Source of the DNA: Laspinema olomoucense D3b
GTDB taxonomy: Bacteria > Cyanobacteriota > Cyanobacteriia > Cyanobacteriales > Laspinemataceae
Reading direction: 5' to 3'
NCBI RefSeq assembly: GCF_025370785.1
Contig: NZ_JAMXFA010000021.1
Location: 1-64,000, forward strand
DNA: 64,000 nucleotides
In this document: piece after piece, positions 2,304-24,455 of the stretch
How positions within the stretch are numbered: the stretch's first letter is position 1
How the letters are laid out: each line of letters begins with the position of its first letter
Position numbers and translations under genes: made by a program
Notes under the pieces: model-generated
Databases searched by the model: none
Seen by the model: only the letters and a program-made list of their open reading frames with translations
Told to the model about the DNA's origin: nothing

Positions 2304-3725
2304 ATGCGTAAAACGAAGATTATCTGCACTCTGGGTCCGGCTAGTTGCGATCGCAATACCATTAAACAAATGGTTCTGGCGGGAATGGATGTAGCTCGCT
2401 TAAACTTCTCCCACGGTGAGTATGCCACTCACGAACAAAATATCCGCACCATTCGCGAAGTCTCCGCCGAATTAAATAAACCGATCGCGATTATGCAGGA
2501 TTTGCAAGGTCCGAAAATCCGCGTCGGAGAAATGGAAACCGGGGTGGTTCTCCATCCTGGGGATCAAACCATCATTACCATGCTAGAGGTATTGGGCAAT
2601 GCTGAACGCTTTAGTTCAACCTATAAAGGATTAGCCCATGATGTTAAAGAAGGAGATTCAATTCTCATTGATGATGGTCTGATTTGCATCCAAGCTAATC
2701 GTATTTATGAGAAAGAAATTTACGGAACAGTAATTTATGGGGGCCCGGTCAAAAGCCACAAGGGAATTAACCTCCGACATTCTTCAATTTCTGCGCCAGC
2801 CATGACCCAAAAGGATATTGAAGATTTGAATTTTGGCTTAGAGCAAAACATTGATTATGTGGCCCTCTCTTTCGTGCGGGAAGCCTCAGATATCAAAGAA
2901 GTAAAAGGAGCAATTAGGCGCAAGGATAAATACGCTCATGTTATTGCTAAAATCGAGCGCCATGAAGCCTTAGAGTGTTTAGAAGAGATTGTAGAAACGG
3001 CAGACGTTGTGATGGTAGCCCGGGGAGATTTAGGGGTGGAAATTCCCTTAGAACGGGTTCCTACCCTCCAAAAATCGATTTTACAGGCCTGTAGAAATCA
3101 TCAAAAACCTGTGATTGTCGCCACTCAAATGTTAGAGTCTATGATTCATAATCCGCGCCCGACCCGTGCGGAAGTATCGGACATTGCTAATGCGATTTAT
3201 GATGGAGCAGATGCGCTGATGCTGTCGGGAGAAACAGCAGTGGGAGATTATCCCATTGAATCGGTCAGAACAATGGCGCTGATTGCCGAAACTGCCGAGG
3301 CTCAGTTAACCACTTCCCGACAATATGTCACGGGAATTGAGGCATATTCGATTGGGAATTCGGTGGTCCATGCAGGCTGCCAACTGGCTGAAAACCTCCA
3401 TGCCAAGGCGCTAATTTGCTTTACTGAACATGGATTCACAGCCCGGTTATTGTCGAAATATCGCCAATCTATCCCAGCGATCGCCGTCACTACCGATGAG
3501 TTTATTCAACGGCGCATCGCTCTATATTGGGGGTTGCAATCCTTGCAACTCCAAGAGGTTTCTAATACCGATGAAATGATTGTTTTATTAGAAAAAACAG
3601 TTTTGGAACAACAACTGGTCGAAAAAGGAGATCTGGTTGTCATTATTGCTGGGTTACCCCTTCCTATTACCGGGGTAACTAACTTGATTAAAGTGCATCG
3701 CATAGGGGAAAGTTATGCCGTTTAA
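2304..3725 (+). CDS. pyk: Pyruvate kinase
   Basis: 473 residues catalysing phosphoenolpyruvate + ADP to pyruvate + ATP, the last step of glycolysis, in the cytosol. Family signatures are clear: N-terminal KTIICTLGPAS-like start (RKTKIICTLGPAS), the active-site segment VIAKIERHEAL with its catalytic lysine, VMVARGDLGVEIPLE, and MLSGETAVGDYP in the barrel, followed by the C-terminal allosteric domain. Length matches the short bacterial type; the extra C-terminal phosphohistidine domain of the roughly 590-residue cyanobacterial isoform is absent, so a second isozyme may exist elsewhere. The ATG at 2304 gives the normal N-terminus. It is followed by a long inverted repeat at 3794-3846 and then by purT on the same strand 268 bases on, so an operon is uncertain. 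Confidence 0.97.
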   Translation: MRKTKIICTLGPASCDRNTIKQMVLAGMDVARLNFSHGEYATHEQNIRTIREVSAELNKPIAIMQDLQGPKIRVGEMETGVVLHPGDQTIITMLEVLGNAERFSSTYKGLAHDVKEGDSILIDDGLICIQANRIYEKEIYGTVIYGGPVKSHKGINLRHSSISAPAMTQKDIEDLNFGLEQNIDYVALSFVREASDIKEVKGAIRRKDKYAHVIAKIERHEALECLEEIVETADVVMVARGDLGVEIPLERVPTLQKSILQACRNHQKPVIVATQMLESMIHNPRPTRAEVSDIANAIYDGADALMLSGETAVGDYPIESVRTMALIAETAEAQLTTSRQYVTGIEAYSIGNSVVHAGCQLAENLHAKALICFTEHGFTARLLSKYRQSIPAIAVTTDEFIQRRIALYWGLQSLQLQEVSNTDEMIVLLEKTVLEQQLVEKGDLVVIIAGLPLPITGVTNLIKVHRIGESYAV

Positions 3726-15505: not shown

Positions 15506-17578
15506 TTACTCCTTAACTGGAATCTCCATCTGTAAGGTTCGGACTAGAAATGCCCACTTATCGGCGGCTTCCTCGATGATTTTAGCAGTGGGTTTTCCGG
15601 CACCATGTCCGGCTTTGGTTTCAATGCGAATCAGGACGGGTGCATTCGAGGTATGCGCTTCTTGTAAGGCAGCGGCGAACTTGAAACTATGTGCGGGAAC
15701 AACGCGATCGTCGTGATCTGCGGTGGTAATGAGAGTGGCTGGATAGGCAGTACCCGGTTTAAGGTTATGTAAGGGAGAGTAAGCATACAAGGCTTTAAAT
15801 TCATCGGGATTATCCGGGGAACCGTAATCGGAACACCAGGCCCAGCCAATGGTAAACTTGTGGAAACGTAACATATCCAGGACACCGACGGCAGGGAGGG
15901 CAGCAGCGAACAGGTCCGGGCGTTGTGTCATACAGGCCCCGACTAATAATCCGCCATTGCTGCCACCGGCGATCGCCAGTTTCTGGGGTCGCGTGTACTG
16001 ATGTTCGATTAACCACTCCGCAGCGGCAATAAAATCATCAAACACATTTTGTTTATTTAACTTCGTCCCCCCTTGATGCCAATCTTCTCCGTATTCTCCC
16101 CCACCGCGTAGATTAGGAATGGCAATGATGCCGCCCAATTCCATCCAGACGACTTGGGAGACAGAAAAACTTGGGGTGAGGGAAATATTAAATCCGCCAT
16201 ATCCATACAAATAGGTGGGATTATTTCCATCCCGTTGGATTCCCTGTTTATGGATGATGAACATCGGTACTTGGGTGCCATCTTTACTGGTGTAAAAGAT
16301 TTGCTCCGTTGTATAATTATCTGGGTTGAAGTCTACCTCGGGTTTTCGATAAAGGGTACTCTTCCCGGTCACCATATCGTAACGATAAATCGTGGGTGGC
16401 GTAGTAAAGCTGGTGAAACTATAAAAGGTTTCAGTATCGTGGCGTTTGCCATTAAATCCACCGGCAGAACCGATTCCCGGTAATTCGACTTCGCGGATGA
16501 AGGAACCATCGAGGTTAAAGAGTTTAATTTGACTGCGCGCATCTTTGAGATAATCGGCTACAAATTGATTATTTAAAAGACCGATACTTTCTAAGGTTTC
16601 GGCGGCTTCGGGAATCAGTTCTTGCCGATCGCCAGTGCGGATATTCAAGGCGATCGCCCGTCCCCGGGGGGCATCCAAGTCCGTTTGAAACCAAAACACA
16701 TCCCCTTCTTTATCAATAAACCCATACTGGGCTTCAAATTCGGTAATTAATTCAATAACGGAAGCGTCAGGATTGGTTAAATCTTTGTAAAATACCAAGT
16801 TTTTCGGGTCAGTACCGCGCCAGACCGAGATAATCAGCACCGTGCCATCTTCACTGACACCCCCGCTAAATCCCCATTCTTTTTGATCAGGACGATGGTA
16901 GATTAAAATATCATCAGATTGGGGAGTACCGAGGCGATGATAGAAGAGTTTTTGATAATAGTTAACCTCTTCATATTGGCCTTTGGTGTTGGGTTCATCA
17001 TAGCGGCTGTAGAAAAACCCTTGATGGTCGTGGGTCCAAGAAGCACCGGAGAATTTAATCCATTGAAGATGGTCGGATAAATCCTCGCCGGTTTCAATAT
17101 CGCGCACTTTCCACTCTTGCCAATCGGAACCGGAGGAAGAGAGACCATAAGCCATGAATTGAGCATTTTCGCTAATGGCAATACCTCCTAGGGCGATAGT
17201 GCCATCTTCCGAGAGCTTATTGGGGTCGAGCAAAACCCGAGGTTGATCATCGAGGTGATTGAGGACATAGAGAACGCTTTGATTTTGCAGTCCATCGTTT
17301 TTAAAATAAAAATACCGACTGCCTTTTTTAAAAGGGATACTGTACTTGGAATAATCCCAAAGTTGAGTCAAGCGATTTTTGAGGCGATCGCGTTGAGGAA
17401 TTTCGTTAAGATAAGCAAAAGTGACTGTATTTTGCGCTTCTACCCAAGCTTTGGTTTCCTCAGCGTCGGGGTCTTCCAACCAACGATAAGGATCGGAAAT
17501 CTGGATACCGTGGTAGTCATCCACGATATCGCCTTTACGAGTATTGGGATAGCTGAGGGTTCCGTCGAAATAGGACAT
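15506..17578 (-). CDS. Prolyl oligopeptidase family serine peptidase (S9A)
   Basis: 690 residues, the usual length for prolyl endopeptidases, which cut short peptides after proline. The N-terminal segment (DDYHGIQISDPYRWLEDPD) is the family hallmark. A beta-propeller (about 70-410) gates the C-terminal alpha/beta hydrolase domain with nucleophile AIAGGSNGGLLVGA, acid in TADHDDRVVPAHS and histidine in KAGHGAGKPT. There is no signal peptide, so it is probably cytosolic. All catalytic residues are present. It ends about 25 bases from a dispersed hairpin repeat. Its upstream region contains the 52-bp perfect palindrome 297 bases before the start. Confidence 0.95.
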   Translation of the reverse strand: MSYFDGTLSYPNTRKGDIVDDYHGIQISDPYRWLEDPDAEETKAWVEAQNTVTFAYLNEIPQRDRLKNRLTQLWDYSKYSIPFKKGSRYFYFKNDGLQNQSVLYVLNHLDDQPRVLLDPNKLSEDGTIALGGIAISENAQFMAYGLSSSGSDWQEWKVRDIETGEDLSDHLQWIKFSGASWTHDHQGFFYSRYDEPNTKGQYEEVNYYQKLFYHRLGTPQSDDILIYHRPDQKEWGFSGGVSEDGTVLIISVWRGTDPKNLVFYKDLTNPDASVIELITEFEAQYGFIDKEGDVFWFQTDLDAPRGRAIALNIRTGDRQELIPEAAETLESIGLLNNQFVADYLKDARSQIKLFNLDGSFIREVELPGIGSAGGFNGKRHDTETFYSFTSFTTPPTIYRYDMVTGKSTLYRKPEVDFNPDNYTTEQIFYTSKDGTQVPMFIIHKQGIQRDGNNPTYLYGYGGFNISLTPSFSVSQVVWMELGGIIAIPNLRGGGEYGEDWHQGGTKLNKQNVFDDFIAAAEWLIEHQYTRPQKLAIAGGSNGGLLVGACMTQRPDLFAAALPAVGVLDMLRFHKFTIGWAWCSDYGSPDNPDEFKALYAYSPLHNLKPGTAYPATLITTADHDDRVVPAHSFKFAAALQEAHTSNAPVLIRIETKAGHGAGKPTAKIIEEAADKWAFLVRTLQMEIPVKE

Positions 17579-18386
17579 ACACTTAGGGAATTAAGGAGTG
17601 TATTCTAGTGTAGCGTTTTGCCTAGAGGATTAAAGCCTTACCGGGGACTGGGAGGGCTTTTTTACCTACCCACCATAACCGGGCGATCGGTACAGATTGG
17701 CTCCCAGGAACCCCGTCCCCAGCCCAGCCCCCTCCCGAGGGAGGAATCGCGACAGAATCGCCCCAGGTGTCCGTGATGGCAAGGGAAGCGGTGATTTTTC
17801 AGCCCGAGGTAGGAGCTCGGATTCCCCCACCCTAGGTGATCGGTTATAATCTCCGGATTTTCTGCTCTGTCCAATCAGAATAGAGAGAACTCCATTGCGA
17901 TCGCAATGGAGTTCTCTCTATTCTGAACTGTTCCCCACTCCATGTACCCTAACAAGAAGATCAAAGGGGAAAAACATCCGGTGTAGAAGCAGCTTAATGG
18001 TAGGGTGGGGTCTAAATCCTCCGGGGTCACCCCCCATTCTAGGGTAGCCACGCTCTCAGACTCTAACTGATCCTGAGCCAGCGCGGCTAGGGCTAAGGGT
18101 TTCCCCAAACAGATGCCCTGTCCGGGAGCATCTACACAGAGGTCACCGGGGAAAAATGCCCTCTTGTTTACCCCAGTCTGGAGCGGATCCTAAAGAAAGC
18201 GGGTATCGCCCCTAAGTGGCCTCTATCAATCAACTGACGAATTGTCCGTGGCGAGGGCTACATAAATTAGATTGAGGTAAATGCTTCCATCGGCGAGTTA
18301 TTTAGAATACAAGCTAAAGCAATTGGGTCGCCAACAATGGGAAGTATAAAAAAGCCTTTTTGAATCAAACCAGTAGTTGAGTGAAG
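17579..18386. other. Divergent intergenic region with palindrome and possible gene relic
   Basis: Besides the palindrome at 17875-17926, the minus strand is open from about 18189 down to 17875, without an ATG, giving protein-like sequence (for example FFPGDLCVDAPGQGICLGKP then LALAALAQDQLESESVATLE). I do not recognise a family. It may be a gene relic or chance. The remainder is featureless apart from poly-T and C-rich stretches. Confidence 0.35.
17875..17926. repeat. Perfect 52-bp palindrome centred on HIP1
   Basis: Two 26-base arms, TCAGAATAGAGAG... and its exact reverse complement, meet without a spacer at the octamer GCGATCGC (17897-17904). No mismatch is seen. A loopless perfect palindrome of this size can extrude as a cruciform or form a very stable RNA hairpin. 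No T-run follows on either strand. Confidence 0.95.
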
Positions 18387-18416
18387 TTGACCCTTTCTTT
18401 CTTACAGTGCTACATT
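18387..18416 (+). promoter_or_regulatory. Candidate sigma-70 promoter for the 824-residue kinase
   Basis: TTGACC (18387-18392), an 18-base spacer and TACATT (18411-18416). The ATG at 18424 is only eight bases beyond the -10 box and has no Shine-Dalgarno sequence, so transcription from here would give a leaderless or nearly leaderless mRNA. Confidence 0.4.
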
Positions 18417-18423
18417 TTTTACT

Positions 18424-20898
18424 ATGGCTAAAATCCTAATTGTTGATGATGACGTAACCGTGCAGCTCGTTCTCCAGGACTTACTTGAAAGCGACGGACA
18501 TCGCATCACCGTGGCCTCTGATGGGACCGAAGGCTGGCGTTTGGCTAGAGAACTGGAACCGGACTTGATCGTTTGCGATTGGATGATGCCCGGACTGGAT
18601 GGATTAGAAGTCTGTCAGAAAATCAAGTCTGACCCCAAACTTGCACCGATGTTTTTCATCCTACTCACCGCCCGAGAAGAAGTGGGCGATCGCATCAAGG
18701 GACTCAACACCGGAGCCGATGATTTTCTCTCCAAACCCATCGAAACCGAAGAGTTTCTCGCGCGGATCAGGGCTGCCTTACGACTCCAAGGCTTAACCCA
18801 GGAACTCAGCCAAGCCAATCAGCAGTTAGAAGCCTTAGTCGAAGTGCAGCGCCGACTCCTCGCCTTTAAAGGAGACACCACCACGGATAATAGTCTCAGC
18901 TACCCCTACACAGAAATTCTTAAACCCTTGGGACAAGCGGCTCATGCCAGTCGCGTCTACCTGTGCCAAAATCCGCCCTTGTCTACAGGCAATCTGGCCC
19001 ACAGGGGGCACTCTCCCCTTTTAGTGGCCCAGTGGAGTTGCGAAGAGTTAAAAATTCAACCCGGATCCGACCCCTCTCCCAAACCGGCTCAATGTTTCTC
19101 CTTAAAAGCACCCGTGCTGATTGAGCGGTGGGTATCCCTGTTGGCACGAGGAGAAGTCATTGCCGATGTTGTGAGTAACTTTCCCGACTCTGAACGAAAA
19201 ATCTTAGAACAATCCGGAATTCAATCCCTGCTGATTTTGCCCCTGATTGTGCATGGGGAATTCTTTGGATTTATTCGCTTTGACAACTGCACAGAACCTC
19301 GGGTCTGGTCCGAGTCAGAAGTCTCCATCCTCCGGGCCGCTGCTGCTGCCGTCTCTCTTCATAAAGAACGGGCCTTAGCGGAAGTGGCCCTGCGGTCTTC
19401 GGAAGCTCGCTATCGTGCCATTGTCGAAGATCAAACTGAACTGATTTGTCGGTTTGCACCCGATGGCACTCTAACCTTTGTTAATGATGCCTACTGCCGC
19501 TATTTCGGCGTGAGTCGCAAAGAGCTCATGGATGGATCGGTGGTCTCTTTGATACCGGATATCGATCGCAACCCCATCGCCATGCCTGTGGTCACCCGGG
19601 AACGCCGGATCATCCTGAGCAATGGAGAAGTGCGCTGGCAACAGTGGACCGATCGCGCCATTTTCGACGCCCAGGGGGTGTTGAGTGAGTTTCAAGCCGT
19701 GGGACGAGATATCACTGAACGTAAATTAGCCGAGGCAGCGGTCCAAGCCAGCGAGGAACGGTTCCGCCAATTAGCCGAAAATATCGAAGAGGTCTTTTGG
19801 ATTAGCGATCCAGACTATAGTCAAATCCTGTACGTTTCCCCAGCTTATGAGGAAATTTGGGGACTAGAACGCCAGCAATTGTATGAGAAACCCACTGCTC
19901 GTTTAGATGCCATTCATCCGGACGATCGCCAAGCCGTCCTCAGCGGATTGATGCCGTTAGATCGCCTCGATCGCGAATATCGGATCATTCGACCCGATGG
20001 TTCCATTCGCTGGATTCGCGATCGGGGCTTTCCCATCCGTGACGAAGAAGGAAAGATCTACCGCATTGCCGGAATTTCAGAAGATATTACCGAAATCAAA
20101 CGCGCTGAAGAGCAACTCCGTCATGCCTTGGCGAAAGAACGAGAAATCATGGAGTTTAGAACCCGATTTGTTTCAATGGTTTCTCATGAATTCCGCACCC
20201 CCATGACCACCATTCTCTCCTCTGCCGATTTACTCGAATATTATTTAGAGGAATGGCCCCATGACAAACTGGATAAAAAGTTCCAAGCCCTCCATCGCAT
20301 TCAATCGGCTACGGTGAACATGACCCAATTACTTGAAGATATCCTGTTCATCGGACGGGCCGAAATGAGCCAACTTCCGTTTAATCCCCAACCCCTTGAT
20401 CTCGCCGCATTTTGTGAAGGAATTGTAGAAGAGTTTCAATTTTCTTCAACCAAAAATTACACGATTAACTTTGTCCAAAATTACTCTAAGGAGTTTTTAA
20501 GCCATAAATACCATAAACCTTGCTTTGATGAAAAATTATTACGATATATCTTAAACAACCTCCTTTCTAATGCTATTAAATACTCCCCGGAGGGCGGAGA
20601 AGTTTATTTTGAATTAACCTGTACCGAGACTCAGGTTATTTTTATGATTAAAGACTCAGGAATTGGCATTCCTTCCGATGAAATACCCCGCCTCTTCCAA
20701 ACCTTCCACCGTTGCGGAAATGTCGGGAATATCCCCGGTACCGGGTTGGGATTGGCAATGGTGAAACGGAGTACCGACTTACATGGCGGGGAAATTGCCG
20801 TCAAAAGTGAGGTGGGATTCGGGACGGCATTTACCGTTAGGCTTCCTTTGTATAGCCGACAGCGAGAAGAGGATTCAAGTTCACAACAAGTGGGATAA
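18424..20898 (+). CDS. Hybrid REC-GAF-PAS-PAS histidine kinase
   Basis: 824 residues, soluble. The receiver is at about 1-120 (D8/D9/D10 acidic cluster, phosphoacceptor D52 in IVCDWMMPGLDG, lysine in DDFLSKPIE). A coiled linker leads to a GAF-like domain about 150-320, PAS about 325-445 ending DITERKLAEA, and PAS/PAC about 450-570 ending DITEIKRAEEQ. HisKA has its histidine in MVSHEFRTPMTT, and HATPase has LNNLLSNAIKYSPEGG, KDSGIGIPSDE and PGTGLGLAMVKR. The N-terminal receiver suggests it acts inside a phosphorelay. The kinase core is paralogous to the 373-residue protein at 8952-10073. It stands alone, 122 bases before an RNA methyltransferase gene. Confidence 0.93.
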   Translation: MAKILIVDDDVTVQLVLQDLLESDGHRITVASDGTEGWRLARELEPDLIVCDWMMPGLDGLEVCQKIKSDPKLAPMFFILLTAREEVGDRIKGLNTGADDFLSKPIETEEFLARIRAALRLQGLTQELSQANQQLEALVEVQRRLLAFKGDTTTDNSLSYPYTEILKPLGQAAHASRVYLCQNPPLSTGNLAHRGHSPLLVAQWSCEELKIQPGSDPSPKPAQCFSLKAPVLIERWVSLLARGEVIADVVSNFPDSERKILEQSGIQSLLILPLIVHGEFFGFIRFDNCTEPRVWSESEVSILRAAAAAVSLHKERALAEVALRSSEARYRAIVEDQTELICRFAPDGTLTFVNDAYCRYFGVSRKELMDGSVVSLIPDIDRNPIAMPVVTRERRIILSNGEVRWQQWTDRAIFDAQGVLSEFQAVGRDITERKLAEAAVQASEERFRQLAENIEEVFWISDPDYSQILYVSPAYEEIWGLERQQLYEKPTARLDAIHPDDRQAVLSGLMPLDRLDREYRIIRPDGSIRWIRDRGFPIRDEEGKIYRIAGISEDITEIKRAEEQLRHALAKEREIMEFRTRFVSMVSHEFRTPMTTILSSADLLEYYLEEWPHDKLDKKFQALHRIQSATVNMTQLLEDILFIGRAEMSQLPFNPQPLDLAAFCEGIVEEFQFSSTKNYTINFVQNYSKEFLSHKYHKPCFDEKLLRYILNNLLSNAIKYSPEGGEVYFELTCTETQVIFMIKDSGIGIPSDEIPRLFQTFHRCGNVGNIPGTGLGLAMVKRSTDLHGGEIAVKSEVGFGTAFTVRLPLYSRQREEDSSSQQVG

Positions 20899-21020
20899 TT
20901 ATTCTCAGGCGGTTGTCCGGACTCGTCCCCTCGGAATTCTGCCTCTTCCCGAATTTTTGGGGAGTAGAAATGACTTCCTAACGGGTCTATATCTAGTGCT
21001 TTTCTGATAAACTATCACTT

Positions 21021-22148
21021 ATGATGACTGAATACTTTGCAACTGTTGCTCGGGGTTTAGAACCCATTGCTGCCCAAGAATTAGAACGGTTAGGTGCTCA
21101 AGACGTTCGTCCGGACTTTACAGGAGTCCATTTTTCGGGCGATCGCGCTTTACTTTATCGGGTGAATTTGTGGGGAAGAACTCTGTTTCGGGTTCTCGTT
21201 CCCATACGAGAATTTTTCTGCCCAAATGCTGAAATGCTGTATCGAGAAGTCCAGTCTATTGATTGGGAAGAGTATCTCGATCCAGGTAATACCCTGGCGG
21301 TGAACTGTACCGGCAGCAATCAAAAACTCAATCACACTCATTTTACGGCCTTACAGGTCAAAAATGCGATCATAGACCAACAACGCGATCGCACCGGAGA
21401 ACGGTCTACTGTGGATCCGAAGGACCCGGATTTGTTGCTAAATCTGCATATTCATGGCGATCGCGCCATTCTCAGTTTAGATAGTTCTGGAAATAGCTTA
21501 CACCGGCGCGGATATCGTCCGGCAATGGGAACTGCACCTCTCAAGGAAACCTTAGCTGCTGCTATTTTAGAACTCGCTGAATATTCCCCAGAACAGCCCT
21601 TTTTAGACCCCCTGTGCGGGTCCGGGACTTTACCTTTAGAGGCGGGTTTAAAGGCATTAAATATTGCCCCAGGATTGTTTAGAGAACGGTTTGGGTTTAT
21701 GAGTTGGCGCGATTTTGACCTCGAACTTTGGCAGGACATCCGCCAGGAAGCCCTAGAAGGTCAAAAAGCCGAATTAACCGCCCCCATCTACGGCAGCGAT
21801 CGCGATCGGGCTGTTATCCAACAAGCCCATCTCAATGCGGAAAACTGTGGATTAGATACTCACGTTCACTTTTCTACCCAAGAATTTTATCACATCGAAC
21901 CCCCTGCCGAAACCGGCATTTTTATCTGCAATCCTCCCTACGGAGAACGTCTCGGTGAAGTACAGGAACTCGGTGATTTTTATAAATCCCTTGGAGATAT
22001 TTTAAAACAGCGTTTTACCGGATGGACGGCTTATATTTTATCCGGCAATAAAGAACTCACCAAAAAAATCGGGCTGAAATCCTCAAAACGCATTCCCGTT
22101 TACAATGGTTCTTTACCTTGTACCTTACTCAAATATGAATTGTATTAA
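21021..22148 (+). CDS. THUMP-domain SAM-dependent RNA methyltransferase (RlmL/YpsC-like)
   Basis: 375 residues. The N-terminal ferredoxin-like and THUMP region (about 1-160, start YFATVARGLEPIAAQELERLG) binds RNA. The C-terminal Rossmann methyltransferase domain has the SAM loop FLDPLCGSGTLPLEAGL, the acid in IYGSDRDRA, and the catalytic NPPYGERLGE, typical of N2-guanine methyltransferases acting on 23S rRNA (RlmL type) or tRNA. The length corresponds to the single-domain relatives, without the RlmK half of the Escherichia coli fusion. Two ATGs lie in tandem at 21021 and 21024. It is convergent with the cyclophilin gene, separated by a hairpin. Confidence 0.92.
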   Translation: MMTEYFATVARGLEPIAAQELERLGAQDVRPDFTGVHFSGDRALLYRVNLWGRTLFRVLVPIREFFCPNAEMLYREVQSIDWEEYLDPGNTLAVNCTGSNQKLNHTHFTALQVKNAIIDQQRDRTGERSTVDPKDPDLLLNLHIHGDRAILSLDSSGNSLHRRGYRPAMGTAPLKETLAAAILELAEYSPEQPFLDPLCGSGTLPLEAGLKALNIAPGLFRERFGFMSWRDFDLELWQDIRQEALEGQKAELTAPIYGSDRDRAVIQQAHLNAENCGLDTHVHFSTQEFYHIEPPAETGIFICNPPYGERLGEVQELGDFYKSLGDILKQRFTGWTAYILSGNKELTKKIGLKSSKRIPVYNGSLPCTLLKYELY

Positions 22149-23736: not shown

Positions 23737-24360
23737 TTAGCTGGCATTAAATGCCATTTGCCAAAATGCCTTTTCAAATTGAGCCACGGTAATCACGGTT
23801 TGTTCAGCTTCTTTCTGAACCTCCGGTGAGGCATCCCTGAGCATTTCATCGGCTTGTTGTGCTAACAATTTGACATAATCGGTAAAGCCCGAATTTCCCC
23901 AGCGATCGGCAAATTCAGTATAGGGTTCCGGCATGGGTCCTGGCAATTGCCACCCTTGATTATAAGCCAACTCCACCGCCCACAATCCCGTTGCTTGCAC
24001 CGCATAAGGAGTCCGGGCTAGATTTCCTAAAAACTGGCTGTATTCTTCACAAGTGCGCTGTTTAGCGACATCCAAGGATAAATTCCGTTCGGCGGCTTTG
24101 GCTTGAAACCAGTTCAATTCATCTTTGAGGGCAGTTAATCCTCCTAACAGGACATCAAAATGATGGCGAGGAGCAACGGATAAAATCCGGGCTAACATCC
24201 GCGTAAATTCCACTACAAATTGATAATCCTGCACCAGCCAAGTATTAAATTGCTCGGGGGTAATAGTGCCTTGTTTACACCCCTCCAGAAAAGGATGGAC
24301 CGTGGCTTCCTGCCAAAGAGGTTGATGGTTTTTAAGAATTTCTTGACAGGTGAGGCTCAT
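23737..24360 (-). CDS. TenA/THI-4 family protein
   Basis: 207 residues of the all-helical TenA fold (start region LWQEATVHPFLEGCKQGTI, then FNTWLVQDYQFV, DELNWFQ, and TPYAVQATGLWAVELAYNQGW). TenA_C enzymes hydrolyse aminopyrimidines for thiamine salvage with an active-site cysteine. Here the segment that would carry it reads TGLWAVELAY, without a cysteine, so it belongs to the TenA_E group, whose glutamate-based activity is less well defined. It is cytosolic. The gene is alone, divergent from nothing close; the ABC-F gene upstream runs on the same strand and ends 96 bases before this start. Confidence 0.85.
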   Translation of the reverse strand: MSLTCQEILKNHQPLWQEATVHPFLEGCKQGTITPEQFNTWLVQDYQFVVEFTRMLARILSVAPRHHFDVLLGGLTALKDELNWFQAKAAERNLSLDVAKQRTCEEYSQFLGNLARTPYAVQATGLWAVELAYNQGWQLPGPMPEPYTEFADRWGNSGFTDYVKLLAQQADEMLRDASPEVQKEAEQTVITVAQFEKAFWQMAFNAS

Positions 24361-24455
24361 AAGTTAAGAATAATAAACAACAGCTTCAGGTTACATCATT
24401 TGGGTACAAAACTGCCCCGTCCCGCATCATCAAGGTTGCTAGACGAGGCGGTGTT

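Follow-up and report, generated by a model that had tools for sequence, protein, structure and literature searches.

The locus of the filamentous cyanobacterium Laspinema olomoucense D3b described here raises the question of whether the mRNA of a sensor kinase gene begins directly at its start codon, without a leader. A preliminary description of this DNA had proposed so from the sequence TTGACC-18-TACATT, whose -10 hexamer ends seven bases before the ATG, and from the lack of a Shine-Dalgarno sequence at the gene. Both features were found as described in the window (the whole stretch of DNA analysed, 64,000 nucleotides), and the reading built on them was followed through the genus and against the rest of the genome.

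The kinase gene and the promoter-like sequence at its start codon

The gene, located at 18424-20898 on the + strand, encodes a hybrid sensor kinase of 824 aa with receiver, GAF, PAS, PAS, HisKA, and HATPase_c domains, all of them Pfam matches above cut-off. Its start codon is secure, since the receiver domain (residues 4-116) begins at residue 4 and the nine aligned homologues all share the ATG from which MAKILIVDDD is read, this being also the codon with which leaderless mRNAs begin. A misplaced start was rejected because of this early receiver, inside which the next in-frame Met lies. The best NCBIfam match of the protein was the scytonemin-biosynthesis sensor kinase, a family assignment that was rejected as its score (304.8) fell below the cut-off (865).

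Extended -10 promoters of the sigma-70 type carry a TGn before the -10 hexamer. Upstream of the kinase gene, a putative -35 hexamer TTGACC (18387-18392, + strand, 5/6 match to TTGACA) is followed by a spacer of 18 nt (18393-18410) and by TACATT (18411-18416, 4/6 match to the -10 consensus). The preliminary description had not mentioned the TG located one base 5' of the latter hexamer (18408-18409), with which it forms an extended -10 element, TG-C-TACATT (18408-18416, + strand). Seven bases, TTTTACT (18417-18423, + strand), separate this element from the ATG at 18424 as a putative discriminator. None of the four Shine-Dalgarno 4-mers searched for (GGAG, GAGG, AGGA, AAGG) was present in the 21 bases 5' of the ATG; across 819 starts sampled from the genome, such a 4-mer was found at -18 to -5 in 256 cases, against 75 in the control stretch from -48 to -35.

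As a lone consensus match (9/12) the kinase promoter is unremarkable and means little: 5 kb of sequence contained 11 such sites, where shuffling gave 5.7 +/- 2.1. This frequency, together with the lack of conservation of the hexamer before pyk (see below), speaks for a chance resemblance to a promoter in AT-rich DNA 5' of a start codon. We regard this as very unlikely, as both hexamers were unchanged in 8/8 Laspinema genomes and only 1 of the 819 sampled starts had a comparable site 6-8 nt upstream of its ATG. Position and conservation together exceed chance.

Conservation of the putative promoter within Laspinema and comparison beyond the genus

The comparison within the genus comprised the eight Laspinema genomes returned by our searches, namely that of D3b and seven others. 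TTGACC, the TG, TACATT, and the seven-base gap were identical in all eight, so that in each of them the TGn directly precedes a TANNNT hexamer and the -10 ends 7 nt before the start, within the approximately 5-8 nt of leaderless spacing. Differences were confined to the spacer, which showed three single-base changes and was 18 nt long in seven genomes and 19 nt, through one inserted base, in the remaining one (L002). Invariant columns amounted to 39/43 in 18381-18423 versus 254/441 in 17940-18380 (Fisher p 6e-6, a value that treats alignment columns as independent), and to 255/300 in the adjoining coding DNA. The promoter block therefore stands out from the upstream intergenic DNA, not from the kinase gene, and its genus-wide conservation can also stem from short divergence. 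Six -10-like positions of the + strand were kept in at least 7/8 genomes between 17900 and 18418; the kinase promoter was the top-scoring one (mean score of 10.0, the next reaching 6.9).

Beyond the genus, the kinase homologue of a sister genus (L009) kept just TTTACTATGG of the promoter region, and no -10-like hexamer was present 4-13 nt 5' of its ATG; for this reason, the putative promoter was taken as a genus-level trait. Among the six closest family homologues from other genera (L210-L215), no -10-like hexamer was found 5-9 nt 5' of the ATG in five; the sixth, L215, showed TAAACT at 6 nt, without a TG.

With TTTACTATGG the sole part retained in the sister genus, and no -10-like hexamer present there, TTTACT might owe its conservation to a role in translation rather than to one as discriminator. 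Such a role fits an alternative in which the kinase mRNA has a leader and comes from an upstream promoter only, the block at the ATG being a regulator's site or a pyrimidine- and AT-rich translation element before the AUG that mimics a promoter. The part retained in the sister genus agrees with it, as does the conserved dipyrimidine reported directly 5' of cyanobacterial start codons (PMC3160421). However, a translation element would not account for TTGACC and TGC-TACATT being invariant and spaced as in a promoter, and we consider this alternative distinctly unlikely.

Reading by eye, a leaderless-like arrangement was also seen in another branch of the family: the REC-kinase homologues of Baaleninema (L069) and Geitlerinema (L071) carry TGC-TATGTT 8 nt before the ATG, just before position 3001. 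These two loci were not taken as support, because the match covers the first 137 residues only and they resemble each other.

Predicted start of transcription and the conserved stretch upstream

In sigma-70 promoters, the first transcribed base usually lies 7-8 bases beyond the end of the -10, and by this geometry the kinase transcript would be expected to start at T18423 or A18424. The nearest purines 3' of the -10 are A18421 and A18424. In S. elongatus UTEX 2973, 52.3% of the transcripts were reported to start with A and 35.6% with G (PMC6091082), and this purine preference would favour A18424, with A18421 as a possible start. In the mechanism that we propose, the sigma-70-type promoter TTGACC-18-TACATT, with its extended -10 TG, would drive transcription of the kinase gene, RNA polymerase would start at A18424 or within three bases of it (A18421), and the resulting mRNA, without a usable leader and beginning with AUGGCU, would be translated by ribosomes starting at its 5'-terminal AUG. 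The first 21 bases of this predicted mRNA were unpaired in the minimum-energy fold of its first 50.

We consider it probable that the kinase gene produces, throughout the genus, a leaderless mRNA with a leader of 0-3 bases. The proposal of the preliminary description is supported by the position of the promoter, by the extended -10, and by the fact that -35, -10, and gap do not vary among the 8/8 genomes, while keeping its standing as a prediction from the sequence.

A second conserved stretch, with 25-35 invariant columns per 40, was detected upstream of the kinase promoter (18244-18363, + strand). It includes GTATAAAAAAGCCTTTTT and could hold another promoter, in which case the kinase gene would have two starts, the leaderless one and one used under other conditions that would give a leader of roughly 70-120 nt. 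Its 3' part (18324-18363) is invariant in 35/40 columns, a share close to that in the coding DNA (255/300), and a TAGAAT at 18303 on the + strand is kept in 8/8 genomes. Against this, the best -35 match of TAGAAT in the window's copy reaches just 2/6, and the conserved + strand sites other than the kinase promoter are weak (means of at most 6.9 versus 10.0). No strong + strand promoter was found in 18244-18363, and no part of the window matched an Rfam family at gathering scores. The existence of two starts is, in our view, rather unlikely.

The adjacent RlmL-like gene

The leaderless start predicted for the kinase gene has a candidate neighbour of the same type, absent from the preliminary description. 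The next gene (21021-22148, + strand) encodes a THUMP/UPF0020 methyltransferase, RlmL-like according to Pfam, starting at ATG 21021 or ATG 21024. An extended -10 element, TGA-TAAACT (21005-21013, + strand), lies 7 nt before the former and 10 nt before the latter, and TGATAAACTAT (21005-21015) was invariant in 8/8 Laspinema genomes, as was the spacing of 7 nt, which equals that of the kinase. In one of these genomes (G001, locus L258), the DNA 5' of TGATAAACTAT is clearly different without any change in the element or the gap, and the distance between the kinase and the RlmL-like gene is about 2.9 kb versus 122 nt in the window. The extended -10 sequence TGATAAACT, in the 21005-21023 region and 7 nt before ATGATG, was kept in all eight, L258 included. 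Thus, a TGn 5' of the -10, as in extended -10 sigma-70 promoters, is found at both genes; the kinase promoter has in addition a conserved -35, whereas the bases where that of the RlmL-like gene would fall are not conserved.

Outside the genus, 38 genomes matched the RlmL-like gene, with loci given for 22 of them. In 15 of these 22 loci an ATG aligns with the second one, ATG 21024, on account of which the leader of the RlmL-like mRNA would be 0 or 3 nt. TGATAAACT was absent near the start in all 22 loci viewed, and nine of them had a -10-like hexamer of some kind 4-13 nt 5' of the aligned start. These nine were read as background, because the genome sample holds 181 such sites per 819 starts at the same distances.

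Leaderless-type starts in the genome and in other cyanobacteria

The frequency of such starts was examined in a sample of 819 ATG starts of ORFs of at least 120 aa preceded by a gap of at least 80 nt, taken from 1.83 Mb of the 7.02 Mb genome (26%); the contig of the window, and hence the kinase itself, was left out. Promoters were counted as comparable when they had a -35 of at least 4/6, a total score of at least 10, and a position 6-8 nt before the ATG, and a single start among the 819 carried one. The -10-like hexamers (A2, T6, at least 4/6) showed no excess at 6-8 nt, with 63 observed versus 70.4 expected from distances of 0-4 and 11-20 nt; the background is raised at 0-4 nt (44 at 1 nt), and distances of 11-20 nt alone give 62 expected. 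Likewise, 5/6 hexamers at 6-8 nt numbered 14 versus 14.8 expected, extended -10 sites 4 versus 2.2 (p 0.18), and strong sites 1 versus 0.4. The 5/6 sites peaked at distances of about 27-43 nt from the ATG, where the promoters of leadered genes would be expected. The sampled starts were picked mechanically, so that wrong ones among them would blur a weak peak. This sample supersedes a smaller count of 577 starts, with the window and GTG and TTG starts included and T1 also required, in which 31 hexamers were found at 6-8 nt.

Starts with a promoter at leaderless spacing are therefore rare in this genome, and the idea that leaderless starts are common in it was not supported. The earlier statement that they are uncommon in bacteria of this type holds as a matter of frequency; rarity apart, leaderless mRNAs are already documented in cyanobacteria, and for this reason the kinase would add a case to a known kind. 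Synechocystis 6803 has 51 leaderless mRNAs, as cited in PMC9938897, and 19 are reported for S. elongatus UTEX 2973 (PMC6091082). In Anabaena, those of cvkR and cas12k are described as leaderless, with complementation tests for cvkR (PMC9938897). As in these Anabaena PCC 7120 genes, in UTEX 2973, and in Synechocystis 6714, the kinase transcript would have its first base at the A of the AUG or beside it, and, as reported for known cyanobacterial leaderless mRNAs, its homologues share the start codon. In contrast to those, whose 5' ends are reported as mapped, the case for the kinase comes from sequence and conservation. Among the papers listed for Laspinema and Oscillatoria acuminata in one library, no report of the kinase promoter or of 5' ends in the genus was seen.

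Leaderless mRNAs reportedly bind directly to the 70S ribosome, and an upstream bias of non-SD genes in Cyanobacteria might, according to the same paper, reflect either such mRNAs or sites for ribosomal protein S1 (PMC5397173). According to PMC3160421, leaderless genes led by TANNNT have a high occurrence in Actinobacteria and Deinococcus-Thermus, and many cyanobacterial genomes are listed as using neither SD-led nor TA-led leaderless genes. In the TA-led genes of that report the first T of TANNNT lies about 12 nt before the start, a distance of 13 nt in the kinase; unlike the phyla rich in them, the genome of D3b shows no excess of TANNNT at this position.

The conservation of the two Laspinema starts differs from what has been reported for leaderless starts in cyanobacteria, which are poorly conserved: 48 leaderless mRNAs are given for Synechocystis 6714, of which only 6 are conserved in strain 6803 (PMC5386190), whereas the kinase promoter is kept in 8/8 genomes of its genus. 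Two adjacent starts with leaderless-type promoters kept across a genus are thus unusual, and, being of a type otherwise rare, they would offer a clean test of whether there is a reason for keeping a start leaderless; apart from that, the kinase promoter is an ordinary promoter annotation. One speculation, to which we give very little credence, is that selection keeps both the kinase and the RlmL-like methyltransferase leaderless and that a ribosome state preferring leaderless mRNAs produces the two proteins, for example under stress. If true, the pair would couple signalling to ribosome modification.

Other starts and conserved elements in the window

To complete the picture within the window, 35 of the 56 listed ORFs were considered, shorter overlapping ones being dropped, and in seven of the 35 a -10-like hexamer lay 4-13 nt upstream of the start codon. 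Orthologues came from at most five of the seven genus relatives (G001 and G002 left out), with one-base shifts allowed. The hexamer was kept in every orthologue for four of the seven starts, namely 18424 and 21021 (5/5 each) and 28859 and 50722 (4/4 each). The last two, each with an AAGGAG, are more plausibly Shine-Dalgarno starts. Start 29451 had a -10-like hexamer at 4 nt in 3/4 orthologues.

For the pyk start at 2304, the same scan gave 0/4 orthologues. The preliminary description had likened this gene to the kinase. The TATAAT on which the likeness was founded is indeed present (2286-2291), 12 nt before the ATG at 2304, but at this place TCTAAT was found in six and TTGAAT in one of the other seven Laspinema genomes, and TATAAT in none. 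A leaderless pyk was accordingly rejected as a second case; the hexamer is particular to the D3b genome and lends it no support. The gene (2304-3725) encodes a short pyruvate kinase of 473 aa, a second copy next to the one, 45% identical, with a 603-aa open frame on contig C104.

Before the gene at 23737-24360, on the - strand (24361-24400), a TATTAT lies 9 nt before the ATG, with TATTCT in the relatives, in 4/5 of which it was detected; this gene may also have a very short leader, although the case for it is weaker.

Finally, the region between the kinase gene and the divergent prolyl-oligopeptidase gene (15506-17578) showed two further elements. The best conserved - strand site in 17851-18600 was located at 17851 (score of 9.0, 7/8 genomes), with GATTAT and, at 16 nt, TGGACA, and it faces the prolyl-oligopeptidase gene. 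Also between the divergent genes, a perfect palindrome of 52 bases (17875-17926), with arms of 26 bases and no loop, occurs once in the genome. A hairpin is predicted at this place in 8/8 Laspinema genomes, weaker in the other seven, with several genomes changed on both arms (CCATTG/CAATGG, CAATTG/CAATTG, TTAATTG/CAATTAA).
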